64,000 nucleotides of DNA. Source: Aphrocallistes beatrix. Lineage: Eukaryota > Porifera > Hexactinellida > Sceptrulophora > Aphrocallistidae. The notes beneath the pieces are model-generated. The model saw nothing but the letters and a program-made list of their open reading frames with translations, was not told the origin of the DNA and ran no database searches. Where the stretch lies: positions 3,553,148 to 3,617,147 of the forward strand of contig OY725499.1 of assembly GCA_963281255.1 (NCBI GenBank), written 5' to 3'. The position numbers were made by a program, and so were the translations under genes. Shown piece after piece: positions 14,793 to 48,916 of the stretch; the stretch's first letter is position 1, and every line of letters starts with the position of its first letter.

Positions 14793-15149
14793 CTATAGCG
14801 AAGTGTGCAAGTCATAAACGCGGTAAGCAGTGAAGAAGGCATCATGAGGATCTTTGTAGTTGGTAAGAGCGATAGGAACATTGACTGGATTCCCGAGAAC
14901 ATCTTCACGTCGAGGAATCAGCTCATACACTTGGCAGAACTTCCTACCTCTCTCATCTGTGAAGAGAAGTGTGTATCTAGCGAAGGAGTCAGCCCCCACA
15001 CACACTATCTGATAGACAGGTCCACTCTCTTGCATTGGTTCTGTTCCTCTGAACCAAACGTAGTTGGTTACCTTGTAGCCGCTAGGAATGTGTAATTCCA
15101 GAGATGAGCCAATAGCAATATGTGCTGAAGATTTTCCTAACAATTCCAT
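14793..15149 (-). CDS. Small Ig-like protein, family 1 copy 1
   Basis: A single-exon ORF of 118 residues without a signal peptide or membrane segment. The pattern looks like one immunoglobulin-type beta sandwich: a VWFRG strand-C tryptophan around residue 32, a long middle, then RKFCQVYEL around residue 75, where an Ig strand F would be. In this copy the residue before VWFRG is Tyr, while copies 2 and 3 have Cys, so only they could form the usual Cys pair. I do not recognise a named family. The gene is nearly identical to the copies at 23499-23888 and 27403-27759 (about seven differences from copy 3), so expansion is recent or conversion is active. A TATA box lies about 80-90 bp upstream, at 15230-15237. 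The ATG is the only one compatible with that spacing. Function is unknown. Confidence 0.75.
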   Translation of the reverse strand: MELLGKSSAHIAIGSSLELHIPSGYKVTNYVWFRGTEPMQESGPVYQIVCVGADSFARYTLLFTDERGRKFCQVYELIPRREDVLGNPVNVPIALTNYKDPHDAFFTAYRVYDLHTSL

Positions 15150-15229
15150 TCAGATGTATTAATATTATAATATTATTATAGAATATAATGGATATATTAT
15201 TTGATATTAAAATGGTGATTTGACTCTAG

Positions 15230-15237
15230 TATTTATA
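15230..15237 (-). promoter_or_regulatory. TATA box, family 1 copy 1
   Basis: TATAAATA on the minus strand, 81-88 bp upstream of the ATG at 15149. Confidence 0.65.
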
Positions 15238-15299
15238 CTTTTTAATGAACTCGACTTGTTTTATACACTCTTAAGTTAGCAAAAAGTGAAGGTATTTGA

Positions 15300-15470
15300 A
15301 AGAACACACGCGTAAGTGGGGACTTTTCATACATAGATGAAAGAACCCAGAACGTTAAGGAAACAGTTCACTCATGGCATTGGGCTAAAATTAAAAGTAA
15401 TGCTACTTCGCTTGCCTACTAAAGATAAATTTTCAAAATACTGTGAGATGAATAAAATTTTATACATTAT
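15300..15470. repeat. Conserved upstream block of family 1
   Basis: This block (AAATTAAAAGTAA ... ACTGTGAGATGAATAAAATTTTATA) matches 23990-24110, 5' of family 1 copy 2. A weaker match lies at 21705-21830. It extends the segmental duplication beyond the gene. 15470-15978 is otherwise AT-rich spacer. Confidence 0.6.
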
Positions 15471-15978
15471 TATTTATTTCATAAATTATTAATATAGCTA
15501 AACCTTTTCAACACAAAATCATGCATTTAATTTTCATTTAGTTTCTCGAATATCTAAATATCAAACATTAGTTTATTTAGAAGAAAGCTGATCACAATGA
15601 TATTACTCTGTTAGATATTTATGTAATTAATGCAGTTTGTGGTAGAGATACTGTTTCCAGACAAATTAACATTTCTTATTAGATAATATGCTCATGTGCT
15701 CACTTACATATATAATAATCTCTTCAGATCATTTAATCAAGCAATCAAGAACAATTACAGGTCTAACTGCATCTAATTAATTTAAAAATTAAAAGGCATA
15801 TATCTTTTAAGAAATAACACAATTTATTCATTCAATTTACACTCAAAATGTGCTCAGTGTTGACAGATTCCAAATAATCAATTTTAAATTAACTGAATTT
15901 TAGGATAAAATAATTAATAATTCAATCATTTGTAATTAGAATTCAATATCAATTATTTACATCAACTGGACACAGAAG

Positions 15979-16449
15979 TTAATGGAAAGAGAGAATTCCT
16001 GGCTGTGCATCAATCTGAGTTGAGTACGGATGTGGGAGCTGTGGAGGCTGAGGAGTACAATAGCTCACTTCATGCGGTTGCAAGAGAGATGGATTGAAAG
16101 GTTGGATCTGTCGCGGGATTGAATCTCTGTTCTGTCTCGCTGGCTGATACGGTGCGATCCGAAGTGGATGTGGTCTCTCTGGATGTGGTCTCTCAAGACC
16201 AAACACTTCGTGATTGAGCATTCCGTTTACGTCACAGTAGAATGCTTCATACTTTCCGAAATGGGTTTCCAGAATGAGAGGGAGATCTAGGATTGGACTT
16301 TGTCGGGATTCTACCCAATTCCCATTCAAGTACCAGTCACACCTGTTAGTGGAGATGGAGCCCTGGACTTTAAACACGATTGACTCTTCGGGCGATTTGA
16401 ACGCTATAGGATGGTTCCTGTATATGCAAGGTAAAGGTCTGGTAGACAT
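15979..16449 (-). CDS. Small Ig-like protein, family 2 copy 1
   Basis: A 156-residue single-exon ORF. Residues about 10-85 look like one Ig-type domain: a hydrophobic strand with VFKVQG, CDWYLNGN with the strand-C tryptophan, a middle with ILDLPLILE, and GKYEAFYCDVNG, which matches the strand-F Y-x-C motif. The rest is a proline/glutamine-rich tail with a duplicated ERPHP motif. There is no signal peptide. Two close paralogues lie at 42537-43007 and 48461-48916. All three share their 3' flank, and each has a TATA box upstream. It neighbours family 1 on the same strand. I do not know the function; the Ig assignment is by motif only. Confidence 0.75.
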   Translation of the reverse strand: MSTRPLPCIYRNHPIAFKSPEESIVFKVQGSISTNRCDWYLNGNWVESRQSPILDLPLILETHFGKYEAFYCDVNGMLNHEVFGLERPHPERPHPLRIAPYQPARQNRDSIPRQIQPFNPSLLQPHEVSYCTPQPPQLPHPYSTQIDAQPGILSFH

Positions 16450-16518
16450 TTCTGTAATTCCTGAATTCTTTTAAATTTGAGTTCTGTTGAAATTTTGTTT
16501 GAAGTGACAATTCTCTCC

Positions 16519-16526
16519 TATTTATA
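16519..16526 (-). promoter_or_regulatory. TATA box, family 2 copy 1
   Basis: TATAAATA on the minus strand, 70-77 bp upstream of the ATG at 16449. Confidence 0.65.
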
Positions 16527-17262
16527 CTACTATTATGTGAAGTATGATTTCAGTGGGAAGTAGCTTACTGGTTGTAGTTGTTACTATTTTTAGTTACTAA
16601 TACAGACTGCATAGAAGGGGACTGGCCTGTCATAAGAATGGTACCGATAGGATTACGACTTGAGAACTTATCCATTTAAAAACATTCTGTAAAATTAGAA
16701 CGAAAACATTCTAGACACAATTCTTAGTATATAATATTCAGTGTCATTGCTCGCCCATTTGTGTAGAGTATAGATGGGGAATCTTGTAGGAGCATACAAC
16801 AGGGCGGTGCTGTCTCGGCGGCAGGCTGTAGTGGGCACATTATCTTGAAATATTGTCTTTTTCACGATGGATTTTGGATGGTATTTATCCTGGAGTGATG
16901 ACTGTCACATTTTGGATGGTTTGTCATACTATGTTGTTCCAGAATTCCAGTAACCCCACCTGGCCTTAAATACGGTGTTCTTTCTACCAAACGGAATATG
17001 AAGATGATGATATATCCAATTCTGCTTCTCTTCTCAGAATATCGGAGCTCCAGTCATGGCTTCTTTAGAAAGTCATTCTGCGAATGTGCCTGAATTGTCC
17101 TAATAATTATCGAAAAATTCTAGATTTAAAAATTAAAAACTTAACAAAACAGCAACCAAAAATGAGATCTGGAATAAAAAGATTCACTCCTAGTCCTATG
17201 CAATCATCTTGTGACTGTAAAACCTGGAACGGGAAGGGGGGAGGGGGGAGGGAAGTACTATG

Positions 17263-17402
17263 ACCACAGTTTGTACCCTACTATTACCTACTACCACAGT
17301 TTGTACCCTACTATTACCTACTACCACAGTTTGTACCTTACTATTACCTATTACCACAGTTTGTACCCTACTATTACCTATTACCACAGTTTGTACCCTA
17401 CA
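17263..17402. repeat. 30-bp minisatellite, nearly five units
   Basis: Units beginning CCACAGTTTGTACC repeat with a period of exactly 30 bp from 17263. A G-rich run precedes them at 17231-17252. Because the period is a multiple of three, open frames with a ten-residue repeat arise on both strands; I regard these as chance. 16530-17262 has no gene that I can support. Confidence 0.92.
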
Positions 17403-17650
17403 TTAATTAATAATGCACATTCAGTTTGTAATGAAATACCCTTTGATTAGAGAAAATTTGTGAACTTTATGGGTAACTAAATCAATTTCTTTTCCCACAA
17501 GGCAGCATCGTAATTAATAGATTATATTTCATGGCTAAATTTAGAAATACTACGTGATGCTAGATATATTAGAGTCCAAATAAGGTACTTCCATTACATC
17601 TGCAGAATCGCACACATAATTATTAATATCTACGTACATAATATAGACAG

Positions 17651-18101
17651 GACAACGTTATCGGAAACCGGCCTCAACCTCTCCTATCAGTGGTACCGAC
17701 AAGATGGTCTGGCTATCCCCAGAGCTTGCAAGCCTTTCTTGACCATTGGACCGCTGAGGAGAGGAGATTTCGGGTTCTACCACGTGAGAATACAAGACTG
17801 CTTTGGGGCCCATGTCCTCTCGAGTTGGGTGGAATTATCCAACTCTGCCTCGATCGCACACGCACCTCCCGTCTTCAAGATTAACCCCCTCCCCGCCCGT
17901 GGCAGACCTGGAGAGTACTCGTATTTGTTCGCACTGGCTACAGGCGTGAATGTGGAGTACCAGTGGTACGATGAGAAGGGGGTAGCCATTCCTGGCGCCA
18001 CTGAGAAGAGTTTAACTTTTGAATCAATCCTGAGTCACCATGGCTTTGGATCCTACAGATGTCTAGCAGAGGATCAGTTTGGTCGTCAGACCTTGGGCTG
18101 A
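17651..18101 (+). CDS. Two-domain Ig-like protein, family 3 (5' exon not found)
   Basis: The exon starts after the acceptor ATAGACAG and ends with TGA. It encodes two consecutive Ig-like domains: LSYQWYRQDG with GDFGFYHVRIQD, then VEYQWYDEKG with HGFGSYRCLAEDQFG. The QWY strand-C and G-x-Y strand-F motifs are typical of C2/I-set Ig repeats, including those in cytoplasmic proteins such as MALT1. The exon opens in a phase that needs two bases from an upstream exon, and I could not identify that exon in 17400-17640, so the start and any signal peptide are unknown. The composition is clearly more GC-rich than its surroundings. A 5'-truncated duplicate lies at 24918-25072. It is on the strand opposite to families 1 and 2. 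Confidence 0.75.
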
Positions 18102-18236
18102 GTAGGAGTCTCCATTTTAGAAATTACTTTAAGGATATGAATTCTGATTAATGGTCATTTGAGTATTCCTATGTGCATTGAATGTTTTTGGTTAAATGTT
18201 GAGTATTGCTGAGTGTTGGCTGATGGAGTCGCTGAT

Positions 18237-18280
18237 GTGGACCACTAAGGGGTCCATGGATCCCAGGTTGGGAACCACTG
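18237..18280. mobile_element. Truncated copy of the 1833-1996 hAT MITE
   Basis: Only the right end is present (GTGGACCACTAAGGGGTCC ... GGTTGGGAACCACTG). No left end and no target duplication were found. Confidence 0.8.
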
Positions 18281-21200
18281 CCAGAGCCGTTGGGACATTA
18301 TTCCAATGTAGCCAGCCTAACATTGACAATTGTAATTGTAAATTGCGTTGTTTGAGTTGTGTGTAGGAGAGCATCCTTTTGATCAGGCGTAGCTTTGTTA
18401 AGAAGGTAATCTGGTATTCGGACTGTTTGGAGATGTTATCACCTGAATGGCAGACAAATGTATACAGGACAATTCTTGGCACTTAAGATGGGTTGCCTGT
18501 TGAGTTCGTGGAGCTTGTCTACTTTCCTTCGTAACCATTCTGTTGGAATATTGACCTTTTGGACTGTATTTGAATCTAAATAAATTCCATATAAGCATAA
18601 ATGTACAGCCATGTGATACGTGCTATTTTTGAAATTATTAATTATAAAAATAACTTAGATTGTTCCAGCTTTCATTTAGATAATGTAAAGTAGGTCCAGA
18701 GGAGTAAATAACCAAATCAAACTAAATATTTAATATCTAATTAGCAATTCAAACCTTTCAAACCACATTTATTTCTGAGACAAAACAAATATTGTACTTG
18801 TAGAGTACACAGGAGAAGTTCAGAATACATATGCTGGTGATATTGTGTAACAGTAGATTACGGACAGTGTCACACTATCGTGATACACGCAATTCATAAT
18901 AAACCTCTCAGCACAAATCTCCCTCACAAGTAACACAACCACATTTAATAACAATGAATAATGGGACAAAGTATATTATTCAAACAAGTTAAGTACAAGC
19001 TTGTGGAATTTCAGGTTTGACTCGAATTAGAATAAGTAAGAGCTTTCCAAGAAAATGAAGAGTGTAGTGTGTTCAATAAATTCCAAGGTTAATTAACCTC
19101 AGTATAATTATAGATCTGAAATCAACTCGACCACAAGCTGAGTTCAAGTATGTCGCTTCTTGAGATATTTTAGACGTGCAATAAAAATTTCTCAAAATGA
19201 TTTGGAGAATTAAACCACAGATTCAGCCAGTGTGAAACAGTACATGAACTGCTGATATAGTATAATCACGTCAATTGTAAGTTAGTGTGATTGGAGAAAT
19301 CATACTGCATTTACATATTTAATTTATTACAGTAATAGGACATATTCGATTTAAAACTATTTATTCCTTCATGTAGAATTGTAGGTTAATCTAACCATTA
19401 AAAATCTGCTTTTTCTCCAATAATAATTCTATCTCCAAGTCCAAATTCAAAAAGCTAAACTCATCAATCATCTCAGCTAACATTCTAGGATATTCGGTAC
19501 TTGTTAAGTTCAGAAGATCTATTAGAAATATGAATTCTATTTGAAACATTCATCGACATATCAATCATAATGTTGAAAATAGAAAATTCATTGCAATTGA
19601 CTATAGTCTTGTTTTTAAGCGCGCAAGTAGGTCAAACAAGTTTTGGTTTGGATGATATGATAGGATCAGATTCTTGCTAATTGTCAAGAAATTGAAAACT
19701 TTATTTGTACCCTTATTCCAAAATTAAAGGAAGCATTTAGAATGAAATTAAATCAATTGTGATATGAAAATCTTTTTGTTTAATGTCGAAAATGAGATGG
19801 AATCGACGTAATAAACTACGTATATAATTTTTTCATTCGTTAAAACAAGCAATTGTAAAAATACAATTTCAAAGTCAGAAATCAAAATCAGATTTGCACT
19901 TTACTAAACAAATAATACAGAATCTAACTTCATCCGGTGTGAGAAACGTCCACATTTCGGGGCTGGGTTTAAACAGGAAGTAATAACTCTACTTCCTCGA
20001 TCTACATTCTGGCGCAAGCAATAATTATATAAGTTAATTACATCAATCAAGCCAGTTCAGTGCATTGTCTATGTTGCAACATGTTATGTAGGAAGTATCA
20101 TATTCTCAACTCGTTATAATTTATTAGAAAATATCACTACGAATTAATGGATCATCTGGAGCAGAATATCAAATGGTTCAGTGGGTACAGATGGGTCTAA
20201 ATCGTGGAAGGATCAATCCCTCTGAGCTTTTGAACGCGGTATCAGCGGGTAGGGCAGCTTTATCTCCGACTTTGAACTCTAAACCGTTCCAGCTCGTACT
20301 AGGACCAATGCAAATAATGTAACGTAATATTAAACCAAAAATGATGACAAACTTATTGGGTAATATTCCTTGAATTTATGCTGATCCAAAAATAACCATA
20401 AAAGCTCGCACATCCTGGTACATCCATATTATAATTCCATTGTCTTTGCTAAAATAGAATTTTTCCCAAATCACAAATCTAACAAACTGAGTTTTTATAA
20501 TTATGAATTCCACAACCATTCAACATATTCAGTTTGACATACATATGCTACCCTGATTCTACCTTCAATTGCAAGTGTGACTAATGCTTAATTAACATCA
20601 GAGCATAGACCAGACAAACCAGAATCAAAATAGTACCAATACGTTGTCAGTAACATTTTCTAACATACACGCACATGTGATTATACATTTTTTCTTAGTT
20701 TATAGTATACTCACATCATCCTCAATGATTGTAATTTGCATTAGAAACATTATTCATGATTCGGTTTAGTCTTGAAAATAATAATAAGTTAATGTATTTA
20801 AGTAATAACCAGAACGTGAGATCATATTAAGAACTCAAAACGACCCGACAATACAAGATAGACTCGACAAGCCATAATCAAAATAGTACTACCAATACGC
20901 TGTCAGTAACATTTTCTAAGATACACGTACATGTGGTTATACATTAAGTTCTACTCACATCATCCTCAATTATTAGTAATTTGCAATTGAACATTATTCA
21001 TGATTCGGTTTAGTTTTGAAAAAAAATCTTAATTAATGCATTTAAGTAATAATCAATATTAGGAACTCAAAACGACCAACTGCATAGTAGACACAGAACA
21101 TTTGCGTCAATGGCATATAGTTGCTACAATAAGTCAAGTATTTCGGAAATGATTTGTTTCTATATTCATCAAATGAAGGTCACTTGATGTTAATTAAGTG

Positions 21201-23498: not shown

Positions 23499-23888
23499 TT
23501 AGAGAATAATATCTTGACATAATGATACTGTATATAGCGAAGTGTGCAAGTCATAAACGCGGTAAGCAGTGAAGAAGGCATCATGAGGATCTTTGTAGTT
23601 GGTAAGAGTGATAGGAACATTGACTGCATTCCCGAGAACATCTTCACGTCGAGGAATCAGTTCATACACTTGGCAGAACTTCCTACCTCTCTCATCTGTG
23701 AAGAGAAGTGTGTATCTAGCGAAGGAGTCAACCCCCACACACACTATCTGATAGACAGGTCTACGCTGTTGCATTGGTTCTGTTCCTCTGAACCAAACGC
23801 AGTTGGTTACCTTGTAGCCGCTAGGAATGTGTAATTCCACAGATGAGCCAATAGCAATATGTGCTGAAGATTTGTCTAATAATTGCAT
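23499..23888 (-). CDS. Small Ig-like protein, family 1 copy 2 (extended C-terminus)
   Basis: A 129-residue ORF nearly identical to copies 1 and 3 through residue 118. The stop after HTSL is lost (the TAG position reads TAT), which adds 11 residues, YTVSLCQDIIL. It begins MQLLD instead of MELLG/MELLD. It has Cys before VWFRG, so with RKFC both cysteines of a possible disulphide are present. It has no signal peptide. It lies in the right-hand segmental duplication and has its own TATA box. Product and role are unknown. Confidence 0.75.
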   Translation of the reverse strand: MQLLDKSSAHIAIGSSVELHIPSGYKVTNCVWFRGTEPMQQRRPVYQIVCVGVDSFARYTLLFTDERGRKFCQVYELIPRREDVLGNAVNVPITLTNYKDPHDAFFTAYRVYDLHTSLYTVSLCQDIIL

Positions 23889-23961
23889 TTTAGATGTATC
23901 AGTATATTTGTATGTGCTGTTATAAATATATTATTTTATGTTAAATTATCGAAATATAATC

Positions 23962-23969
23962 TATTTATA
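23962..23969 (-). promoter_or_regulatory. TATA box, family 1 copy 2
   Basis: TATAAATA on the minus strand, 74-81 bp upstream of the ATG at 23888. Confidence 0.65.
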
Positions 23970-24819: not shown

Positions 24820-24917
24820 AACACAAAGATATTTTTTTTGATGATAAGAAAAAAATTATTTTGTTACAAGTAGAAAACCACATGGAATCAAACAGCTTCG
24901 CAGATATATCTTTTTTT

Positions 24918-25072
24918 TGAATGTGGAGTACCAGTGGTACGATGAGAAGGGGGTAGCCATTCCTGGCGCCACAGAGGAGAGTTTAACTTTTGAACCAATC
25001 CTGAGTCACCATGACTTCGGATTCTACAGATGTCTAGCAGAGGATCAGTTTGGTCGTCAGACCTTGGGCTGA
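24918..25072 (+). pseudogene. 5'-truncated copy of family 3 (last Ig domain only)
   Basis: From GAATGTGGAGTACC the sequence matches 17946-18101 through the TGA and on into the 3' flank. The match starts abruptly after a T-run (24911-24918), so everything upstream of the second Ig domain is missing. A few substitutions change residues. It lies beyond family 1 copy 2, the same order as unit 1 (family 1, then family 3), with family 2 missing between them. Confidence 0.88.
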
Positions 25073-27402: not shown

Positions 27403-27759
27403 CTATAGCGAAGTGTGCAAGTCATAAACGCGGTAAGCAGTGAAGAAGGCATCATGAGGATCTTTGTAGTTGGTAAGAGTGATAGGAACATTGACTGCAT
27501 TCCCGAGAACATCTTCACGTCGAGGAATCAGCTCATACACTTGGCAGAACTTCCTACCTCTCTCATCTGTGAAGAGAAGTGTGTATCTAGCGAAGGAGTC
27601 AGCCCCCACACACACTATCTGATAGACAGGTCCACGCTGTTGCATTGGTTCTGTTCCTCTGAACCAAACGCAGTTGGTTACCTTGTAGCCGCTAGGAATG
27701 TGTAATTCCACAGATGAGCCAATAGCAATATGTGCTGAAGATTTGTCTAATAATTCCAT
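27403..27759 (-). CDS. Small Ig-like protein, family 1 copy 3
   Basis: A 118-residue single-exon ORF ending HTSL then TAG. It has Cys before VWFRG and the RKFC cysteine, and no signal peptide. It is almost the same as copies 1 and 2, yet its flanks outside the gene are unrelated to theirs beyond a short distance, so only the gene was copied or has been conserved. The promoter box is TATATATA rather than TATAAATA. Function is unknown. Confidence 0.75.
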   Translation of the reverse strand: MELLDKSSAHIAIGSSVELHIPSGYKVTNCVWFRGTEPMQQRGPVYQIVCVGADSFARYTLLFTDERGRKFCQVYELIPRREDVLGNAVNVPITLTNYKDPHDAFFTAYRVYDLHTSL

Positions 27760-34501: not shown

Positions 34502-37500
34502 ATGGTAATGAAGGGAACAATTCTATTTTCAAAGTACTCAACGAGGAAATATAAAACAGATTCGATGTTGCTAATAAGACTCGAACAAAAAATGCTAAAA
34601 ACAATTTTGAGCAATCTCACCGTTCCCTTATTCGGGTGGTTAGAACTATTCGTTCTAAAGTCATCTCTAAAGAAATCGTTCACAAAGAAAGACCTACCAA
34701 AACCGCATTTTAAGTACGATGCAAGAGAGGCATATGAAAGTTTCCAAACCGTGTGGTCTGAAGAGACAAAAAGGAAGAACCCAAAACTGTGGAAAACCTT
34801 CTTCACACTCTTCTATAAGCAATTCATTTTCGCTGGGATTTTAAATTGCATCGAAGTGACGATTAATCTGACCATACCTTTGTTGCTTGGAGTCTTCATA
34901 GGGATTTTGGAATGCAGTGGTTCGTCTGACCAAAAATTAAAACTTTTCGGAATCGCAATAAGCATCTACGTCATTAATGCGACTAGAAAAATACTACAGC
35001 AAAACGCACTGGCACGAATGGGAATTTTAGGGATTAAATTTCGCAACATCTTAAGCTCAGCTATTTACCGTAGCATCCTCAGTCACGATCAAACACACAA
35101 CATATCATACGGGAAACTCATAACCCCTATCTCACTGGGCCTCTACAAGCTTGATCTCGGTATCATTTTCATACATTACTTATGGATCTACCCCTACGCT
35201 TTGGTGCTATTCGTCTTCTTACTGTGGAAGGAAATAGGATGGGCTGCATTTGCTGCTGCAGCTCTCGCTTTGATGCAGATTCCACTTAGTATGGTATTGG
35301 GGTATTACGTCACGAAACTCAGGTTGAAGATTGGTAAAGTAACGGACTCGAGAAACAAGATCATGAGGGAAGTCATTGAAGGTATGCGAATCATCAAAAC
35401 GTTTGCATGGGAATATTCCGTTGAAAAGTTTGTAGGATCTGTACGAGCAAATGAATTCAGAAAATACCTGCTATCTTATCTGCTAAAAGTAGCTAGTATC
35501 GTACTTGCAACTACGTCTCCCATATCAGGAAGTGTCGTATGTCTGTCACTGTACGCGTTGACAGGAGGAGAGTTCACAGCAGCCACTATATTCACAGCCA
35601 TTTCGTTGCTAAGAAACTTCAGACAAGTTAACATATTTTTAAGCAACTCCGTTATTAACACTTCCGAGATATATTCCATCATCAAACGTGTACAGTGGAT
35701 AATTGGAGGTAAAGAATATCTGATACAAGAAGAAAACGATGCGAAGTCAACCGAAGATCCAATCGTGTATGCAAATAATTTTTCGTGTGGTTGGAGGACA
35801 AAGGAGAAGAAAGAACATGTCGTATCAAATGTTAACTTTACCGTCGAACCGGGCGAGATCCTGACGATTATTGGCGGTGTAGGCTCCGGAAAATCTTCAC
35901 TTTTGAAGGGTTTAGTGAATGAAAATGTGTCAGTCAATGGTACGAAGATAGTGAAAGGCAGTAAAGCGCTCACCCTTCAAGAACCGTGGGTATTCTCTGA
36001 CACCGTTAAAGAGAACATTACGTTCGGGGCTAATTTCGACCCTGTGTGGTTTGGTAAGGTGGTAGAAGCGTGTTGTTTGGAAGATGACATCAAGAGTCTA
36101 GTCAAGGGGGACGAGACAGTGGTAGGGGAGAGAGGCATAACTCTCAGTGGCGGTCAGAAGGCAAGGATCAGTCTGGCTCGAGCTGTCTACGCCGATAAAG
36201 ACATCTACCTGTTGGACGACCCACTGAGCGCGGTAGACTCCATCGTAGCAGAAAGGCTGTATAGCGAGTGCATCCGTGGAATTCTCAAAGACAAGATCGT
36301 CATACTAGTCACACACCAGCTACGATTTGTTCACGATTCCAACCACGTCCTGGTGCTTGATAAAGGAGAACCACTGTGCATGGGTAACTATAAGGAACTG
36401 ATCGAGAACCCTTCTTGCAAGGAAATATTCGAGAAAGTTAAGGACGAACCTAAGCCAAAAGAGGAAGAAACCACAGTTCAACTGGAAGATGATATAGCTC
36501 CACTCGATATTAAAGACATCGCCGATAAGGAATTTAACGTATCAGTAATATCTCTACCAAATAAGGAAGATTTGGAGAGTTTGCAAGAAAAATTTGAAAA
36601 CGACGAAAACAACCTCTCAGCGGAGAAAAATGAAGTCGGAGGAGTCAGTTTTATGGCATATCTGATCTATTTCTGGAAAGGAGCGCACATATTCGGTCCA
36701 ATGATACTCATCATGATCATGTTGACGCAACTTTTAGGAGACATCGGTCTCAACTACTATCTCGTGTTTTGGACTGCACTGACAGAAGTAAACATCACGA
36801 GCATAACATCATGTCAAATCCCTCGGTTCAATGGCAGCACAAACAGTAGTTCCCCAGGTTTCAATCCCCTTGCAAACACGTCGAACCATGAACGAATTCT
36901 GATATACTTTTCGCTTGGTGTCCTTTGTCTGATATGCTACTACGTGGGGTATAGTCTGCTGTACAGCTCATTATTGAACGCATCACGGCGACTTCATAAC
37001 GCGATTCTGTGGAAGATATTACGCGTCCCAATGCGCTTTTTCGATATCAACCAAAGTGGCTCCATCATCAACCGCTTCTCAAAGGACGTCGGGACACTAG
37101 ATGACATCCTGCCACTTCTAGTTCTCCAGTTCACGATGACAAGCCTGGCTTTCATTTACACTCTCATTTCTGCCATCATCTCACAATGGCTCGTCATTTT
37201 CCCAACTTGCATCCTCATCATACTCCTAGTGCTGTACCGCTCCTACTACTTGAGAATATCGAGACAGGTGAAACGAATTGAGTCAGCCGCGAAGAGTCCC
37301 ATCCTAACCCACATCTCCACCACTTTACATGGCCTCCCGTGCATACACACGCATCAACTGGAATCCCTTTTCATCGACAAATTATACCATTACCAGGAAG
37401 AACATTATAATGTGTGGACCACTGACCAAATGCTAGCTCGCTGGTTCGGATTAAGGATCGATCTGATAATTTCCATGTACACCCTCATAACGGAATGCAT

Positions 37501-38500
37501 CTACATCATAATGAGCGACAGCGTAGATCCAAGAAGCGTGGCCTTTTCCGTCGCTCTCTTACTGAGCATAGCTGGCACCATTCAATTCTGCATTCGCACC
37601 AGTGCACAGATAGAAACGTTCATGGTAGCGACGGAGAGAATCCTTGCGTACACTAAACTCCCAGAAGAACCGCCATTAAACTTGAAGGGGAAAAGGTTTC
37701 AGATTTTCAGTGGGGACATAGTTTTCAGAGGTGTCACACTCCGCTATTCCTCTCATCTCCCTAAAGTGCTGAAGGAGCTCAACATCAATATTAAGGCGGG
37801 CCAGAAGGTAGGGATCGTAGGCCGTACGGGGGCGGGGAAATCGTCTCTCCAAGCGGCTCTGTTCCGATTGGTGGAGCTGTCCGGTGGCTCCATTCTGGTG
37901 GATGGCACCGACATTAGCACCGTGGGACTGCACGAACTGAGGAGTCAGATCTCCATCATTCCACAGGACCCCGTTCTCTTCAGCGGCCCGCTAAGACGCA
38001 CGCTGGATCCATTCGACGAATACACAGACGTAGACGTCTGGAATGTTCTAGAAAAGGTCCAATTGAAAGACAAAGTTAGCGAACTAGAAGGACAGCTGCA
38101 GTTCACAGTGTCGGACGCGGGCAGCAACTTCAGTGTGGGAGAGAAGCAGCTCTTCTGTCTGGCGCGAGCTCTCGTCCGCAACAACAAAGTGCTGATGCTA
38201 GACGAGGCCACTTCCAACGTAGACATGCTGACTGACTCCGTCATCCAGCGCATCATACGCACCCACTTCAGAGACGCCACCGTGCTAACGATAGCTCACC
38301 GCCTCAACACCATAATAGACGCTGACAGCATTATCGTGATGGGGAATGGGAGAGTGAAGGAATGCGGAACTCCGTGGCTGATGCTGCAAGATCCGAACGG
38401 ACACCTGACCAAGCTAGTGAACAAGACTGGAAGCGAGGCGGCCTCTCTTAAGGAAAAAGCTAAAGCTTGCTACAGGAGGAACTTCTTGAAGAACCACTAG
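34502..38500 (+). CDS. ABCC (MRP4-like) full ABC transporter, single ORF
   Basis: 1332 residues with the layout TMD1, NBD1, TMD2, NBD2, the size of ABCC4/MRP4 (about 1325). NBD1 has Walker A GGVGSGKSS at about 458, signature LSGGQ at 548-552, Walker B LLDD at 570-573 and a VTHQ H-loop. NBD2 has Walker A GRTGAGKSS at about 1107, a variant signature FSVGEKQ near 1210, Walker B MLDEATS with D1234/E1235, and H1266 in TIAHRL. Such pumps export organic anions, conjugates and nucleotides across the plasma membrane. A motif-poor linker runs from about 640 to 715. There are no introns in 4 kb, unlike its neighbours, which may mean a retrocopy. GC content rises strongly toward the 3' end. I kept the first ATG; a second in-frame ATG follows two codons later. 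Confidence 0.95.
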   Translation: MVMKGTILFSKYSTRKYKTDSMLLIRLEQKMLKTILSNLTVPLFGWLELFVLKSSLKKSFTKKDLPKPHFKYDAREAYESFQTVWSEETKRKNPKLWKTFFTLFYKQFIFAGILNCIEVTINLTIPLLLGVFIGILECSGSSDQKLKLFGIAISIYVINATRKILQQNALARMGILGIKFRNILSSAIYRSILSHDQTHNISYGKLITPISLGLYKLDLGIIFIHYLWIYPYALVLFVFLLWKEIGWAAFAAAALALMQIPLSMVLGYYVTKLRLKIGKVTDSRNKIMREVIEGMRIIKTFAWEYSVEKFVGSVRANEFRKYLLSYLLKVASIVLATTSPISGSVVCLSLYALTGGEFTAATIFTAISLLRNFRQVNIFLSNSVINTSEIYSIIKRVQWIIGGKEYLIQEENDAKSTEDPIVYANNFSCGWRTKEKKEHVVSNVNFTVEPGEILTIIGGVGSGKSSLLKGLVNENVSVNGTKIVKGSKALTLQEPWVFSDTVKENITFGANFDPVWFGKVVEACCLEDDIKSLVKGDETVVGERGITLSGGQKARISLARAVYADKDIYLLDDPLSAVDSIVAERLYSECIRGILKDKIVILVTHQLRFVHDSNHVLVLDKGEPLCMGNYKELIENPSCKEIFEKVKDEPKPKEEETTVQLEDDIAPLDIKDIADKEFNVSVISLPNKEDLESLQEKFENDENNLSAEKNEVGGVSFMAYLIYFWKGAHIFGPMILIMIMLTQLLGDIGLNYYLVFWTALTEVNITSITSCQIPRFNGSTNSSSPGFNPLANTSNHERILIYFSLGVLCLICYYVGYSLLYSSLLNASRRLHNAILWKILRVPMRFFDINQSGSIINRFSKDVGTLDDILPLLVLQFTMTSLAFIYTLISAIISQWLVIFPTCILIILLVLYRSYYLRISRQVKRIESAAKSPILTHISTTLHGLPCIHTHQLESLFIDKLYHYQEEHYNVWTTDQMLARWFGLRIDLIISMYTLITECIYIIMSDSVDPRSVAFSVALLLSIAGTIQFCIRTSAQIETFMVATERILAYTKLPEEPPLNLKGKRFQIFSGDIVFRGVTLRYSSHLPKVLKELNINIKAGQKVGIVGRTGAGKSSLQAALFRLVELSGGSILVDGTDISTVGLHELRSQISIIPQDPVLFSGPLRRTLDPFDEYTDVDVWNVLEKVQLKDKVSELEGQLQFTVSDAGSNFSVGEKQLFCLARALVRNNKVLMLDEATSNVDMLTDSVIQRIIRTHFRDATVLTIAHRLNTIIDADSIIVMGNGRVKECGTPWLMLQDPNGHLTKLVNKTGSEAASLKEKAKACYRRNFLKNH

Positions 38501-39950: not shown

Positions 39951-42536
39951 TTTCAGAATAATAAATTGATAATATAATACGCATAGTAGGCATAGGGACA
40001 AATAAATAATATGGCTGAGATAATTTTGAACTGTAGCCTGGGACAATATTCAGTAAGATAATCATGATACCATCAAATCAGCCAATGGAATAATATATTA
40101 TCCTTTCAGAGTAGAGGAATTAAACATTAACCATAATTATTATAGTATTACTTGGGAACTACTTGAAACTAAGTATTGTAACATACAAATATGAAACGAG
40201 TATATAATCGGAATTGTTCAAATTTATAAGAAATAGGAGGGTATTGTCCTGGCTATAATTATCATCCTATTATCCTATTAGGATTACATGACATTTTCAA
40301 AATGGAATAGTATATTCAGCTTTTACATGAAATCATAATTATTATAGTATTACTATAGAACTAAGAATTGTAACATATACATAAATACGATAGGAGAATA
40401 TAAATTGAAATTGTTCAAAATTATAAGAACTAGGAGGGTATTTTCCTGGATAAAAATCCTACTATCCGATACAGATTACATAACGAGTGATTTTTAATTA
40501 CGTATTTGGATATATTTTCTGTGAATTAAATTGGGCCAAAGCCTTATCTAAAACTCTTCAGTAATTCACATTGCATAGTTCCATCCAGTCATTTGCATGT
40601 TGAGTTCTTCAGCAGTTTTTATATAATTTTTTTAATCATTAAGAAGAAAATGAGTGGCATCAGTATTCTTTAATTAATGAATCGTTTGAAAACAAGTGAA
40701 GAAAACCTAATTAAACAAAGCAAATCATTGCTTCACTTTTTAGTCAAGAAATGTATATTAAGTATAATTATATAAATATATATGTTAGGACATACCTTCC
40801 ATTTTCAACATAGCTCCAAAGTCTTTCACAAAATCCTTCATTCAAACATGAGTAAGAACCACGAATGCATTCATAAACGATTGCGTATCATTCCACCAAA
40901 AATCAATTGCCGAACTGACTTCCAAAATATCCCCAAATGTATAATAGGATCAGAGAATGATTTGTAACTACAATTCTTGTGCTCGCTTCCTCTCATTTTT
41001 TTGCCTTCAGTAATAATCGACACAGCCAATCATCTCTAACTTATTAAACACTCCCTTGAATGGTAGAAACTTCCAAATTAATCTTAGCAGATGCAAGTCT
41101 ATCTAATCTGGCCAGTGGGAGGTTTCTAACACAAATTATAATTTAATATAATTGTAGCGAGTTTTGTCATGCAAGTTTTGGCAAAGAATTGTCTAGAATG
41201 ATAATGCACTAATCGTCAATCATATGTTATTGTGTGTTATTGCAGACACTGCGTGTTCAGAGTCCGCCCTGCACGCGCCTGGGGAATCAAAGAAATGGCA
41301 CATTGCTTTCTGATTCTCTACTAAGGATTGCTGAATTGCCATGTGTTTTTTTGGATAAATTTACCAATAAATTTATCCATAAATTTACCAATAAATTTAT
41401 ACATAAATTTATTGAGAAAAGTATTAATATATGTCTGCATGCATATATGCAGGTCGAGTCGGGTCCGCAAGGCAGCTGTAATACGGCCTCTTAGGAAGCC
41501 CTTGCAGATTCTCTAATAATATACTCAAAATAGTTGTATTTAATAATAAACATCTGCTGAACAAAGAAAAGAGATATTACTAAGCATGTGCCTAAGCGAA
41601 TTCCTGGGGATGAGCCAAACTAAGTAAAGTTACCAGACGAATTCAACCATATGAAATATTCAAATAAATATTACCTTTACCTTAATTTTAACTTTAACGA
41701 GAAAGAAGTATAACTTAACTTTAACGAGAAAGTTTAACTTTGCAAGTTTAACTTAGTTTAACTTAACGAGAAAGTTTAACTTAACTTTAACGAGAAAGAA
41801 GTAAAAAAACACCAGATATACGTATACTGAGTGGGATTTGAAGTTACTCGAACTTGGTGTTACTCGTTAAAGTTAAAATTAAATTAAAATTACTTATAAA
41901 TTAAAATTAAAAAATAAAAATTTTTACTTGGTGTAACTCGTTAAAATTAATTCAATTAGATCAGCTTAACAATGAAATTATTATTAGTGCGAGAGAGTTA
42001 AATACGAGAGTACTCCATTCACGTATAAGGACATGAAATACTAGCATGACTTCAAACAAAAAGTACCTTAGAATTTTAGGGTTAGGTCCACAGACAATCG
42101 ATTGTACAGATGTATAATATTGGACAGTGGTACAGTAGTCACGATGGCATCAAACAATTGTAACTTTCAAACTCTGCTTAAAGTGAAACAAAAGACATCA
42201 AATTTTATCTAACTTCTCCCTTAGACTAGAAGTACGTATTATGTAGATTATAGGAATTATTCATTCTGAATGCCAATCGTATCGCATATCATTCCATATT
42301 CATTAAATATGCACTTCTTGTGAAGTATATTTGGACATGAGACGTTGTAATCTATCAAGATTAATTCACTAACTTTCCCTTCAGAGTAGTCGATTCAATT
42401 AAAATATTGTTAAATTATTTAGTTATTATACCACACAATCAACAAATAACTGAATTTTAGGATAAAAAGAATTTACAATTCAAACATTTGTAATTAGAAC
42501 TTAATATCAGGCATTTCCATCAACTGGATACAGATG
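39951..42536. other. Gene-free spacer, left copy of a second duplication
   Basis: A diverged pair of about 110 bp each (AGGAGGGTATT...CCTG) lies at 40140-40300 and 40330-40480. 40840-41110 matches 46500-46815. Iterated AAATTTA words occupy 41355-41415, and low-complexity TTAACTTTAACGAGAAAG iterations lie at 41680-41960. No gene is supported. Confidence 0.5.
41680..41960. repeat. Low-complexity TTAACTTTAACGAGAAAG iterations
   Basis: Irregular tandem copies of AACTTTAACGAGAAAG are followed by AAATTAAAATTA runs and TTGGTGT(A/T)ACTCGTTAAA, which partly mirrors the first part. Confidence 0.8.
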
Positions 42537-43007
42537 TTAATGGAAAAAGGGAATTCCTGGCTGTGCATCAATCTGAGCTGAGTACGGATGAGGGAGCTGT
42601 GGAGGCTGAGGAGCACAATAGCTCACTTCATGCGGCTGCAAGAGAGATGGATTGAAAGGTTGGATCTGTCGCGGGATTGAATCTCTGTTCTGTCTCACTG
42701 GCTGATACGGTGCGATCCGAAGTGGATGTAGTCTCTCTGGATGTGGTCTCTCAAGACCAAACACTTCGTGGTTGAGCATTCCGTTTACGTCATAGTAGAA
42801 TGCTTCATACTTTCCGAAATGGGTTTCCAGAATGAGAGGGAGATCTAGGATTGGACCTTGTCGGTGTTCTAACCGATTCCCGTTCAAGTACCAGTCACAC
42901 CTGTTAGTGGAGATGGAGCCCTGGACTTTAAACACGATTGATTCCTCGAGAGATTTGAACGCAATAGGATGGTTCCTGTATATGAAAGGTAAAGGTATGG
43001 TAGACAT
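42537..43007 (-). CDS. Small Ig-like protein, family 2 copy 2
   Basis: 156 residues from the ATG at 43007. An in-frame ATG exists upstream at 43067, but it lies only about 10-17 bp from the TATA box at 43077-43084, so it should precede the transcription start; the N-terminus MSTIPLP also aligns with the other copies. The Ig-type motifs CDWYLNGN and GKYEAFYYDVNG are present. The strand-F cysteine of copy 1 is Tyr here and in copy 3, so no canonical disulphide is possible. The proline/glutamine-rich tail is intact. Function is unknown. Confidence 0.75.
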   Translation of the reverse strand: MSTIPLPFIYRNHPIAFKSLEESIVFKVQGSISTNRCDWYLNGNRLEHRQGPILDLPLILETHFGKYEAFYYDVNGMLNHEVFGLERPHPERLHPLRIAPYQPVRQNRDSIPRQIQPFNPSLLQPHEVSYCAPQPPQLPHPYSAQIDAQPGIPFFH

Positions 43008-43076
43008 CTCTTTTCCTTGAGGATTGATAATTTTATTATGCTTTTTAACTGTTAATTGAAAATACAAACAAACTTC

Positions 43077-43084
43077 TATTTATA
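43077..43084 (-). promoter_or_regulatory. TATA box, family 2 copy 2
   Basis: TATAAATA on the minus strand, 70-77 bp upstream of the ATG at 43007. Confidence 0.65.
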
Positions 43085-43591
43085 CTTTTTATACAATGTA
43101 AATACTAATAGGAATACATAGAATACGAATTGAAGCAAATTAGCGTATTTGCTACTGATTAATAAATGGACCTAGATTTTTGCTAACTCATTTCCGGTTA
43201 AGTCATTTTGGGTGGGGAAGCCTTAGAAGTGTGGGGTCTTTGCTATAAATAGAAATGACCCCAGGTAATCTAACGGTTAAATGCTATGACTGCATACATA
43301 GATCAGTAACTGGTTCTTACTATTTCTTTACAGGCTCAAACAGTAAGAAAAATGATATTAAGAAAAAAATCAATGGAAATTAATATAGATTTGGAATTTT
43401 TTACACCATAAATAGTAAGAAAAAACGATAAGTAGGAAAAACCCGGTGTCAGAGTGCCAGCAGTCCCCCGGACTCCTCACTCTAGTGCCACAAGCCGGGG
43501 GGCACCTAGCACTATGACACCTGTTTTGACTGTATTTGCATGGGAACACATTGGAGTGTACGAATACTTTTGGTAGGGCAATACATTAATA

Positions 43592-43681
43592 CAGTGGTTC
43601 CCAAACTGGGGTCCATGGACCCCTTAGTGGTCCACAGAAGATATCAGGGGGTCCACAGCCCAAAAAGGTTGAAAACCGCTG
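43592..43681. mobile_element. Short hAT-type MITE
   Basis: Ends are CAGTGGTTCCCAAACTG and GGTTGAAAACCGCTG, with the GTCCATGGACCCC interior of the 1833-1996 family. Flanks are CATTAATA and CATTAATG, a 7-of-8 target duplication. Confidence 0.88.
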
Positions 43682-46500
43682 CATTAATGTATACATAGTT
43701 GTCACATCCCTAGTGGTGTTTTATGGAGCTGGAGCCGTCTGTTGAATAATGAACTATTATTATTGAAGACATTCTTTCAAAAGAAAAATTATTTTATTTA
43801 AATGAATATTTCAAAAGAATCTTTTCTAATTACTGAGAATGAATATTCATGATTCTTACTAAATAATTAAAAAATCAATTTAACATTTGAGTAGAATTGA
43901 ACTCCGAGAAACATGGATGAACAAGCGAGTTTAATTCTTATATTCGAAATATCCTATTTAGTTAGCTTCGTTCTAGGAACTTTGATGGATAGTTTAAATG
44001 ATGCATTTTCTCTCATTCAAATAATTTGGTTGTGAGCTGTGGGTATATTTCTCTGGAGCGATGTAAATAATCAAAATGAAAAGCAATAATAAAATGACAC
44101 TGCACTGATTGAAGAAATTAAACAAAACATTCCATTGGTATTCTTTGTAATGACTCGGATTACGTACAGGAAAATTATTCTACAGTCTCTCTTGGAAGAT
44201 TATTTAGGTAACATACCGTTGCTAATTCAACTCTTTAATTTTCAGTCATTGTAAGCAGTCACTGAATATTTGGCTACTAGAGAAAACATTTCAAACGAAC
44301 AAAATAAATGAAATACTCAGTAACTCACTCCAGACGTTATTCAATTTCCTCTTAGAGAAAGTCTGTGTAATATTACTCACTTGAGAATTATTATATTTTT
44401 AGAAATAGGATATGTTTATTTGTACTTAGACAATATTTTCTCACTATAGGAACTGAAATCAAATAGTATCTAAACATTGTACAATAGTCAAACAAGTTTC
44501 TTCAAATTCTATTTAGTAATCAGCCATTGGGTCAAAATTCGTGAGGGAATCAACCTGAACTATATCAGATAGTTTAATTAAACGAAGGTAATTTTGGTAT
44601 ATTTCTGTGGAGAGGAATATCCAAATAGAATTCTGTTAAAAACATAGCCAAAAAAAACTGCAACGGAGAATATTATCTAATAATGGTGTCGCTAATTATT
44701 CAACACTGTTTGTGACAATGATTGAGACGTGGTTAAGATATAATTAAAATGCACAGGAGCTGATACATGCAGACATCATGTTAACAACGTATTAACCATA
44801 GTAACATCCCCATGTTATATCAAAGTATATCGTGTGAGGTCTTGTTTATATTTTGAGGTAGAGTTGCAACATGCTAGTTGGTCTGTTACAAAACATTGTG
44901 GATAGCTCTGATTCTAGTTTCTGGTCTTGCACCATAGAATATGGGTGGAGATATGGGATATATCCAAAGTACATGGACAGCTAGGTCCGCCTATGATGGT
45001 AGACTAATTGCTTGTGATGTGAACCGGTACCATGTCATTACGTGTGTGAGGAACTTAAAATAAGAAAACAAGAGACAAGAGCATAACAATTAGAATGGCT
45101 AATCTTGCAAATCGAAAAATATCAATAAATTTATTGGTGGATTTGCTTCGTTTCAGAATTAAGGGAATTGAGCAATCAATAGCTGGTTAATGTGTTCAGT
45201 TGAACGAACTCGTGAAGACAACTAGTTGACAGTTTGCATTTCTCGCTCATATCCGATCGCGATTATATATGTATTTGAACATGTCATTGATTATCAAACA
45301 GCAGAGATAGAATCAGATTCAGATTCAGATACTTCGTGTGAGGGATCGGATTCAGAAAAGTGACTTCATAAATGTCGCGGTTAAGTAACACATAATGAAG
45401 AAATAAAATTTTAAATATAAATTGACTAAAAACTACAAACCTGTATTTCAAGATAGGAAAACAGATTTCTTCATTTGGGGCGATTTATGCCGTCTCTAAC
45501 ATCCTAGACTACCAAATATCGTTCAGAATAGTCGGATTATTCTCAGTAAGGAATGGAACATACCTAATAGTATCCGCCAGGTTCATTTCTTAGTTCTGTT
45601 CAATATTGCAATTTAGTATCTAATTGTTGTGTGCTTAAACAATAGAATATCAAATTTTGATTAGTGTAAATTATCAGTGTTTTTACCGAGCACTCCGTAA
45701 CAAGCAAATCAGGCATTAATTAAATACGTAAATAGATTCCTATTTAGAAAGCAGTGAATCAATACAAAGTGAAACTAGATATAAGCAGACATCATGTAAA
45801 CAACTAAAAATAATATCAATCAAAGAGTAGCACTAACATTCCCGTTGTACCATACAGTAACTATCTTGTGACACAATCACAGAGATTACAGTACATTCAT
45901 TAAGTCTATAATCATTGCACAATAACTGAAGACATGAAGAAGCTAGAAATTATATTTGTTCATAAATCTTCTAGCTTTGTAATGGTAATGTGGACAAGAG
46001 TATCGGGTTATATTCAAATCACATGAATAACGATGCCAGCCTATTATAATGTTAAACTTAGCACTTGTGAACAAAATATCATGAGATTCAGACTGTATAT
46101 CTTGATCCGAACTTATGTAGATATAATCAGAAAACCAATGAAGAACATAAAAAATGTGGAATCTTGATAAAAATTGTGATCAAAATATACTTATTTTATT
46201 TTATTCTATAGAAGCGCGTAACTTTAAATAAGACTGTATGTCGCAACACACTACAATAAGTCCATATCTTAAAAATATTGATATCATGAATCGATAAATT
46301 GATTTTATCTAAGAATTGGAAAGGTATCAAAAAGCTAATTTTAAAAATATTTGTAATTGAACTAGTAAGGACAAATAGTAGTTTCCTCATCAAATAGCAG
46401 TTACATGTGTACTCGCATACTCGGTAATTAACCATACATGTGTTGTTTGTTATTCGATCATATATATATTTTTTAAATTTTAAAAATTTACTGGAGATTA

Positions 46501-46668
46501 CTCCAAATCAAATACGTAGGAACCACGAATGTGCTCATAAACAATTGTGTACTATTCACCAATAATTAATTAATAGCCGAACTTCTCCAAATCAAATACG
46601 TAGGAACCACGAATGTGCTCATAAACAATTGTGTACTATTCACCAATAATTAATTAATAGCCGAACTT
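46501..46668. repeat. Exact 84-bp tandem duplication
   Basis: Two adjacent, apparently identical units start CTCCAAATCAAATACGTAGG (46501 and 46585). A diverged single copy lies at about 40850-40925. Confidence 0.93.
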
Positions 46669-47863
46669 CCTCTCCTCAATTTGTATCAGAGAATAACTCT
46701 CGTACTCGCTTTTTCTCATTCTTCTCAGACTTCCGTTATAACCAGCACAGTCGTCATCTAATTACTAAGCACTATCCTTGATGGGTAGAAACCTCAGAAT
46801 TAATTATATTAAAAGGTAATGTGGAATTATCTAGAAAATATAAATTAAATGCGTTTGATTTGGGTGTGGTGTCTCAGGCTTATCTCGATTATACTTTAAA
46901 ATGCAGACGGGATCTACTGTACCATTATACCTCCACCAGGATCAACATCAGATTAATCCCCATATTAATTGATCGCATTGTACTTTCGAGGTATTACTAA
47001 GGAAAATGATTCTATTCTTAGACTACGTTAAGTTCAGTTACTTTAAAGATAATAGTTAGGAACTACTGATAGATGCAAACGATAAAAATATTAGAAAATA
47101 AAAACGTGTGTTGTATTACAATAAAACGATAACAAATATCTGAATACACTCATTAGTAAACATAGACTTAAGTGAGTAATGTTCCTGATAGGTCAAATAA
47201 ATAAGTCAAGAACAGATGACTTACTAGAAATGTAACAGAAAATTACCTTAAAATACCTTAATTTTACAGATAATAGATCGACAAAGGAATAATATTAGAC
47301 AAAAAACAGCATGTTTGCGATGACTGGTGAGATATCATTGTTATGTTATTAATGAACTCGAGTCGTATTGGTGTACATTCTAGTGTAATGTGGTTACATT
47401 CTATTGTACATTTTGACATTCTCATTAATTTGACGAAATAGTGTACCACACACAGTCTTGTACGTGAGAAGATACAAATTTGATCACATAATTCTGCTCA
47501 AAACTCAACAAATAATTGTTTGAAAGTACAGTCTCGTAACAGACAAAATTCCTGGTAAAGGTTACAAGGCTATAATACGAATTAAATCGAATTCGGATAT
47601 ATAATTGCACGTAATACGTATTAACAATGATAAGTTGCATCGTTCATTTGAATCTATATATTTAGAACTTCTGTTATCTGTAATAATTATTATAAAAATG
47701 AGTTTTTGGAAAAGATCAAATTCTATTAGATCTGATCATCAAAAAATGAAATTCATAGAAATTTGACCCAACTCAGTTAGTGCATATCTTAGGTGAATAT
47801 GAAGTTTATTTAAAACACATTTATGAGTAAAGCTGATCTTCACTACTTCACTCCACTGCTTTT

Positions 47864-47915
47864 TATTATTTATTATTTATTATTTTTTATTATTTTATTT
47901 ATTATTTTTTATTAT
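47864..47915. repeat. (TTA/TTTA)n microsatellite
   Basis: Runs of TTATTATTTATTA. Confidence 0.85.
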
Positions 47916-48460
47916 TCACTTCACTGCCAGAGGTTTTTAACCAATAAACATGCTGCAAACCCATATCAGTCACTTTTATCAAAGTGCGTCAAATAGCAGA
48001 TATCAGTGCTTACTACAATTATAATTCGGTTAAAAGGCTACTTTAAGTTTCAAAAAGTATCTACATTCGATTAGAGTCTTGTATTTTAGGCATGACACAA
48101 TTTCTCAAACCCTAATTCTTATTCAAAGTTAGCACTAGACACATCCTCAACCATTTAACTCCTCCCTTGACTACGTACGTAAATTGTAGGAAATATTTAT
48201 TCTGATCGGGTCATACTACCTACACCATATTCTTATCAATTAATAGGCACGTATTGTAAAGTATATCTAATCTTTCAAGGATTAGTTTCATAATTTTTCT
48301 CTAGAGTAGTTAATTAAATTAGGATACTGTATTATTTAATTACCATTTGTAGCTACAATTATTTTAAATTTATTGAACCTTTAAAATGGCAAGAATTAAC
48401 AATTCAATCATTTGTAATTAGAACTCAATATCAATCATTTCCATTAACTGGACACAGATG

Positions 48461-48916
48461 TTAATGAAAATAGAGAATTCCTGGCTGTGCATTAATCTGA
48501 GCTGAGTACGGATGAGGGAGCTGTGGAGGCTGAGGAGTATAATAACTCACTTCATGAGATCGCTAGGGAGATGGATTGAAAGGTTGGATCTGTCGCGGGA
48601 GTGAATCTCTGTTCTGTCTCGCTGGTTGATACGGTGCGATCCGAAGTGGATGTAGTCTCTCAAGACCAAACACTTCGTGATTGAGCATTCCGTTTACGTC
48701 ATAGTAGAATGCTTCATACTTCCCGAAATGAGGAGGTTCCAGAATGAGAGGGAAATCTAGGATTGGACCTTGTCGGGATTCTACCCAATTCCCGTTCAAG
48801 TACCAGTCACACGTGTTAGTGGAGATGGAGCCCTGGACTTTAAACACGATTGACTCTTCGGGTGATTTGAACGATATTGGATGGTTCCTGTATACTGTGT
48901 AAAGTATGGTAGACAT
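48461..48916 (-). pseudogene. Small Ig-like protein, family 2 copy 3, with a nonsense codon
   Basis: The reading frame aligns with copies 1 and 2 over its full length, but a TAG at 48563-48565 truncates it to 117 residues, just after the Ig-type region and before the last third of the Pro/Gln-rich tail. Beyond the stop the frame remains open to the normal TAA, so the nonsense change is recent, or the shorter protein is tolerated. One of the two ERPHP motifs is deleted and a PP insertion sits before HFGKYEAF. Two TATAAATA boxes lie upstream. It could still encode a functional Ig-only protein. Confidence 0.78.

Follow-up and report, generated by a model that had tools for sequence, protein, structure and literature searches.

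Small leaderless immunoglobulin-domain proteins, probably cytosolic, belong to an expanded family in the glass sponge Aphrocallistes beatrix

Most known expansions of immunoglobulin (Ig) families concern recognition proteins that are secreted or lie at the cell surface. Among the systems closest to the proteins described here, human MALT1 contains an Ig1-Ig2 pair (PDB 3k0w) which is intracellular, as the sponge proteins probably are. In MALT1, however, a death domain precedes the Ig domains and a paracaspase follows them, whereas the sponge proteins consist of one or two Ig domains only. The MALT1 domains also retain their F-strand cysteines in the alignment, unlike most domains of the sponge two-Ig proteins. 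The I-set domains of titin and myomesin are likewise among the closest known systems. Bacterial and phage Ig domains (PDB 9c2d, 9ncf, 9flp) resemble the second sponge domain (Ig2) in their high total scores with the Ig2 profile, but these are tail or surface proteins with Ig arrays and not two-domain cytosolic proteins. In the glass sponge Aphrocallistes vastus a tandem cluster of AIG1-domain genes was described (PMC10282587) as a similarly lineage-specific, mostly single-exon expansion and was discussed alongside immune gene expansions; its domain is AIG1, not Ig. Among open-licence papers we found none on leaderless Ig families in glass sponges.

We analysed a stretch of 64,000 nucleotides of the A. 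beatrix genome (C13:3553148-3617147, hereafter the window) and searched the genome (100.5 Mb, 28 contigs) for related genes. Proteins from this genome are called own proteins. Match counts for large families are lower bounds, and the database set was clustered at 90% identity, which hides diversity. A first-pass annotation of the window had described three families of leaderless Ig-like proteins. Families 1 and 2 are real, and they are not chance ORFs because their copies recur on other contigs and have counterparts in database assemblies. Family 3 is represented in the window by two fragments lacking an ATG. The features are listed in Table 1.

Table 1. Coding sequences, fragments and TATA boxes of the three families (positions within the window)
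Feature	Position	Strand	Remarks
Family 1 ORF	14793..15149	-	118 aa, single predicted Ig domain, no leader
TATAAAT box	15231..15237	-	88 bp upstream of ATG of 14793-15149
Family 2 ORF	15979..16449	-	156 aa, probable Ig region and Pro/Gln tail
TATAAAT box	16520..16526	-	77 bp upstream of ATG of 15979-16449
Family 3 fragment, two Ig1-type domains	17652..18101	+	in frame without ATG; 3′ end lost
Family 1 ORF	23499..23888	-	129 aa; runs 11 residues beyond the usual stop
TATAAAT box	23963..23969	-	81 bp upstream of ATG of 23499-23888
Family 3 fragment, part of second Ig domain	24918..25072	+	3′ truncation identical to that of 17652-18101
Family 1 ORF	27403..27759	-	118 aa; no TATAAAW in the 200 bp upstream
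Family 2 ORF	42537..43007	-	156 aa
TATAAAT box	43078..43084	-	77 bp upstream of ATG of 42537-43007
Family 2 ORF shortened by a stop in the Pro/Gln tail	48563..48916	-	117 aa; Ig part open
TATAAAT box	48976..48982	-	66 bp upstream of ATG of 48563-48916
Further family 1 ORF, 3′ end	63910..64000	-	remainder beyond the right window edge

Three complete family 1 ORFs starting with ATG and the 3′ end of a fourth lie in the window. The genome yielded nine family 1 matches: five copies 92-100% identical to the query and four at 29-36% identity (loci given for three of these), one of the four containing an internal TAG. Two copies (L003 and L005) also have an earlier in-frame ATG. Two cysteines, C50 and C72, are kept in all nine aligned rows and are other than the canonical Ig cysteines. 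A Pfam scan of one window protein and two distant ones detected neither an Ig profile nor any other above cut-off, and the best E-value in a PDB profile search was 0.14. The predicted fold of family 1 is an Ig beta-sandwich: its structure model (pLDDT 82.2) retrieved Ig-fold rows in the fold search. MALT1 was absent among the fold-search rows shown for family 1, which excludes nothing. In profile-profile comparison family 1 had a weak match to the Ig2 part of the two-Ig family (E 0.0003, probability 39%) and a weak one to family 2 (E 0.0017, probability 15%).

Family 2 comprises six copies in the genome, three of which carry one TAG within the query span; all three stops are in the tail, outside the Ig part. 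None of three family 2 proteins scanned with Pfam gave an Ig or other profile above cut-off, the best hit being a weak match to BiPBP_C (16 bits against a cut-off of 26.8), and a PDB profile search with the family returned no match. The Ig1 profile matched family 2 weakly and in the right register, and the profile-profile match to the two-Ig family was weak (probability 1.5%). For this family the structure prediction proposed by the first-pass annotation gave an unusable model (pLDDT 44.2, too low), and the fold search gave unrelated rows. The proposed Ig type is thus backed by prediction for family 1, whereas family 2 is only probably Ig.

Intact members of family 3 are four 190-aa copies on C13, outside the window, and 36 family 3 matches were found in the genome at E up to 0.001. 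That the window copies end at a splice donor was considered and rejected, since the intact copies show the ending to be a truncation. A search with a member of Ig1-linker-Ig2 layout gave 65 genome matches, which correspond to 39 places when matches less than 900 bp apart are merged and fragments are counted: 25 on C13, six on C9, four on C1, two on C3 and one each on C4 and C18. The set thus extends beyond 50 kb. The Ig assignment holds for this group, Ig_3 scoring above the curated cut-off in all four two-Ig proteins scanned (L016, L017, L022 and L024). Some small Ig frames on C4 were suspected of membership, and two of them were examined: L051, which adjoins an FN3-like frame, was dropped as a member, and L052 matches the Ig1 profile.

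A profile built from 14 two-Ig proteins matched 117 database proteins. The first 45 (P0002-P0046) are of the sponge type, score at least 136 bits and are 153-245 aa long; the next match drops to 98 bits, and the weaker ones include two more of sponge type (P0048 and P0052), eight with bacterial names and one with a bird's. Layouts were read for 33 of the 45, and most of these share a common layout without a leader. The only matches named Oopsacas in that search were LOD99_14869 and LOD99_14871 of Oopsacas minuta (P0025, P0040; 201 and 182 aa), annotated only as hypothetical or Ig domain-containing; like the own two-Ig proteins, they have two Ig domains and pass no leader test. A tree of 56 rows separated an Ig1-Ig1 clade (family 3, 12 rows) from an Ig1-linker-Ig2 clade (44 rows), with one Oopsacas protein in each; the midpoint root serves for drawing only, and 13 of 51 inner branches are open. 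Several tight groups in the tree unite own copies with near-identical database rows. The C-terminus is -IC or -LC in seven of eight Ig1-Ig1 database proteins.

For families 1 and 2 the profile search suggested by the first-pass annotation used one mixed profile; it gave five matches and may have missed deeper relatives. Four (P0119-P0122) are 99-100% identical to own copies; the fifth, P0001, shares 90-96% identity with the near-identical copies of family 1. For 10 of 30 own proteins the database contains a counterpart at 96% identity or more, and in six of these cases the identity is 100%. In summary, the genes of the window are part of a larger, expanded two-Ig family, whose copy numbers may differ between species.

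The first-pass annotation had named MALT1 as an example of cytoplasmic Ig domains, and the sponge Ig1 domain may be of the MALT1 type. The best single-domain match of the Ig1 profile in the PDB was human MALT1 Ig1 (31.7 bits), and among the 60 chains shown a domain passed on its own only in two MALT1 and two CD22 chains. In the search with the two-domain profile MALT1 was 11th by E-value, after bacterial, phage, titin, DSCAM, contactin and CEA chains; with one single member as query it was fourth (E 0.0056). The Ig2 profile ranked phage and bacterial Ig chains first, at least equal to animal ones, and also matched titin, Fc receptors and MALT1.

None of the 30 own proteins tested, which include members of families 1 and 2, passed the hydropathy thresholds for a signal peptide or transmembrane (TM) segment, and the term leaderless refers to these thresholds. 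Among 47 sponge-type database proteins (own-species copies included) the N-terminal threshold was passed by two and the TM threshold by none. The two are P0018, in which the segment falls inside the A strand of Ig1, and P0026, whose gene model is odd. By hydropathy, then, the proteins do not show the signal peptide or TM segment of secreted or membrane Ig receptors (VCBP-, DSCAM- or Alr-like). Nor do the two-Ig proteins show the canonical B-F cysteine pair, a membership feature of the Ig superfamily, although known Ig domains may also lack it. The B-strand cysteine was present in 1/61 Ig1 and 3/56 Ig2 domains and the F-strand cysteine in 0/61 and 9/56, a count over 61 two-Ig proteins from the own genome and the database, a few of which are duplicates between assemblies, with families 1 and 2 outside it. 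The missing hydropathic leader and TM segment, together with the general lack of the cysteine pair in the two-Ig proteins, point to a probably cytosolic location. Non-classical secretion, which needs no leader, is compatible with the hydropathy result.

All 31 frames examined start with an ATG preceded by an in-frame stop 3-108 bp upstream. TATAAAW was found within 200 bp upstream of 26 of the 31 genes, against 11.8% of random stretches, and at -50 to -100 in 21; the five genes without it include 27403-27759, and five of the six window ORFs have the box. The gene copies are not independent in these counts. A longer motif, AGTATAAATA, occurs before 15 of 31 genes against a background of 0.5%, but was chosen by eye from the same sequences.

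Near-identity within families, as first described, was confirmed: the five close family 1 copies are those at 92-100%, and coding identity within families is 90-99%. Coding constraint, for which dN/dS had been proposed as the check, is present in families 2 and 3 and in the Ig1-Ig2 clade, with young family 1 copies excepted. Pooled dN/dS was 0.40 in family 2 (three genes), 0.37 in family 3 (four genes) and 0.26 in the Ig1-Ig2 clade (10 genes). It was 0.39 for the window family 1 copy with three distant paralogues (single pairs with the window copy 0.26-0.53); these values and those of the Ig1-Ig2 clade are rough because many pairs are saturated at synonymous sites. Among the five near-identical family 1 copies the pooled ratio was 1.15, with only 1-3 synonymous changes per pair. 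In family 2 the ratio was 0.44 in the Ig part and in the tail alike (15 pairs, six copies).

The flanks of the copies mostly align no better than shuffled sequence. Several matches end at the coding limits. Homology between 27403-27759 and two other family 1 copies begins 1 bp before the ATG and ends 1 bp beyond the coding end; between L017 and L018 it runs from the ATG to 8 bp beyond the end. The pattern has exceptions: a stretch of about 100 bp downstream is common to several family 2 copies, other pairs in family 1 are alike over as much as 90 bp upstream, and the family 1 copies at 64 kb and 89 kb have long common flanks. Homology limited to the coding region was also seen in an unrelated ABC-transporter pair, so that the pattern is not special to the Ig family; homology was kept in the flanks of an avidin pair, of an aldo-keto reductase pair and of several pairs from two arrays of membrane-protein genes. 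Homology ending at the coding limits suggests gene conversion or coding-only copying. The simplest reading is gene conversion between loci whose old flanks have diverged, which would keep the copies alike. Coding-only copying, e.g. retroposition, is the alternative; gene conversion fits better because the TATA boxes are found again in front of copies with flanks that cannot be aligned.

Using PF00656 and PF13927 we found a MALT1-type gene at C14:748300-751300 (L050), a single open frame at least 855 aa long (897 by another reading). The four best PDB matches of its N-terminal part are the MALT1 death domain (E 0.0017-0.0043), followed by five unrelated chains at E of at least 0.17. One Ig domain scores above the Pfam cut-off, and a second is possible from a Contactin-1 match over residues 77-239 of the searched piece. 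All ten PDB matches of the caspase domain at E up to 1e-9 are MALT1, the best at 5.8e-33. The gene thus combines a death domain, Ig and a paracaspase in one protein, unlike the leaderless proteins. A search of the genome with PF18703 (MALT1 Ig3) gave no match, and neither did the control. A survey summarised in 2018 (PMC5978004) reported paracaspases of type 1 from planulozoans only and, in sponges, those of type 2. Because the sponge MALT1-type protein scores 19.4 bits with the Ig1 profile, below the 31.7 bits of human MALT1, its Ig1 is no particularly close relative of the leaderless Ig1, and an origin of the latter from this gene is unsupported. The gene does mean that a cytosolic MALT1-related partner is available in the same genome.

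Several other explanations were considered. The window set might be largely decaying duplicate debris, functionless in this block, as the loss of both ends in its family 3 copies, the stops in three of six family 2 copies and the ratio of 1.15 in young family 1 copies would suggest. We regard this as unlikely: the family 2 stops are confined to the tail, where dN/dS equals that of the Ig part (0.44), the window family 1 copy gives 0.26-0.53 against three distant paralogues, with synonymous sites near saturation, and a TATA box precedes five of six window ORFs. A more improbable reading is that the proteins leave the syncytium non-classically and act outside in adhesion or allorecognition. Extracellular action is the rule for Ig domains of such type, sponges as sessile animals come into contact with neighbours, and such export would need no leader. 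Against an external role stand the near absence of canonical cysteines in the two-Ig proteins and the missing leader or TM feature. There is also no sign of extreme polymorphism, given the counterparts at 96% identity or more for 10 of 30 own proteins, although the 90%-clustered database hides diversity.

Acquisition of Ig2, or of the whole family, from bacteria by horizontal transfer is very improbable in our judgement. The bacterial names (and one bird) below the sponge-type matches, the phage and bacterial chains heading the Ig2 ranking and the single-frame genes would fit it, but the PDB ranks are totals over several repeats in each chain, Ig2 is matched by titin, Fc receptors and MALT1 too, and the best single-domain match of Ig1 is MALT1. 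Single-exon genes are moreover common in A. vastus (PMC10282587). The faintest prospect is that the ORFs represent inner exons of larger genes for secreted or membrane Ig proteins, with the leader in an unseen upstream exon. P0001, the family 1 relative, does differ over roughly its first 16 residues, and the frame on C4 next to the FN3-like one recalls large receptors by eye. All 31 frames nevertheless begin with an ATG after an in-frame stop no more than 108 bp away, 21 of them with TATAAAW at -50 to -100, and the 45 sponge-type database proteins are short, most of the 33 read having no leader.

We favour, with a probability of roughly 0.5, an expanded set of small, single-frame genes for soluble proteins with one or two Ig domains each, serving as cytoplasmic, MALT1-like, protein-binding adaptors, decoys or recognition modules, the copies being homogenised. 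The proteins would stay in the cytoplasm of the syncytium, where the face of Ig1 might act like that of MALT1, by analogy, as a protein-binding platform. Such roles would belong to intracellular, probably immune, signalling, with the MALT1-type paracaspase of the same genome perhaps as the partner, and gene conversion or coding-only copying would keep the copies alike. The tissue of glass sponges is syncytial, and the trabecular syncytium of Oopsacas harbours an archaeal symbiont (PMC10280926); an intracellular sensor or adaptor would be reasonable for this reason.

A bolder and improbable extension is that glass sponges, with a body that is for the most part a single common cytoplasm, moved Ig recognition off the cell surface into the cytosol. 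There an expanding set of MALT1-like Ig proteins lacking disulphide cysteines would sense or mark the contents of the syncytium (microbes, or the cytoplasm and nuclei of a neighbour after fusion) and feed the paracaspase, a type believed to be missing from sponges. The presence of a MALT1-type paracaspase in a sponge is relevant to the time at which the MALT1 signalling machinery originated. The proteins described here represent an expanded Ig family at an unusual probable location, and a multi-copy leaderless family in syncytial animals would offer a natural test of Ig recognition in the cytoplasm.

The genome of the sponge encodes a type 1 paracaspase (locus L050), which has the layout of MALT1: a death-domain-like N-terminus is followed by one or more Ig domains and then by the caspase domain. 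Reading the translation revealed GHG and DMCR in the caspase domain, which we take to be motifs of this domain. Peptidase_C14 gave 58 matches across the whole genome, many of them within one block of contig C17 (C17:338779-447685). A survey of paracaspases that PMC5978004 summarises found no type 1 member in sponges.

Genes in the window and elsewhere in the genome are listed in the table. The first avidin-family copy is interrupted by ~1.35 kb, within which the transposase ORF lies; the copy at window 3855-4241 matches Pfam Avidin (E 9e-17). The ABC transporter has a second copy on C13, ~90 kb further right, and the 92.5% identity between the two is limited to the coding sequence. Also to the right of the window, C13 carries two arrays of small hydrophobic membrane-like proteins.

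Features in the window and elsewhere in the genome
Feature	Position	Details
Avidin-family genes	window 1-158, 1508-1801, 3855-4241, 7161-7547	in tandem
Tc1-like transposase ORF	window 428-1114	
ABC transporter	window 34502-38500	1332 aa, single frame
Deoxynucleoside kinase piece	window 53563-53886	Pfam dNK, E 7e-14
Membrane-like protein array	C13:3693519-3709144	9 related ORFs
Membrane-like protein array	C13:3728163-3747865	8 related ORFs
L052, Ig1-like protein	C4:5640300-5641400, frame 48-845, minus	50.2 bits to Ig1 profile
L050, paracaspase	C14:748300-751300, frame 437-3001	

The Ig1-like protein L052 has, as judged by eye, a hydrophobic stretch towards its C-terminus and is perhaps tail-anchored. 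Among the leaderless two-Ig proteins of family 3 (Ig1-Ig1), all four copies of this genome (L016-L019) end in -[IL]C, as do seven of the eight database proteins (P0019, P0030, P0036, P0043-P0046); P0040 of Oopsacas minuta lacks the ending. This C-terminus might serve as a signal for binding or for lipidation.
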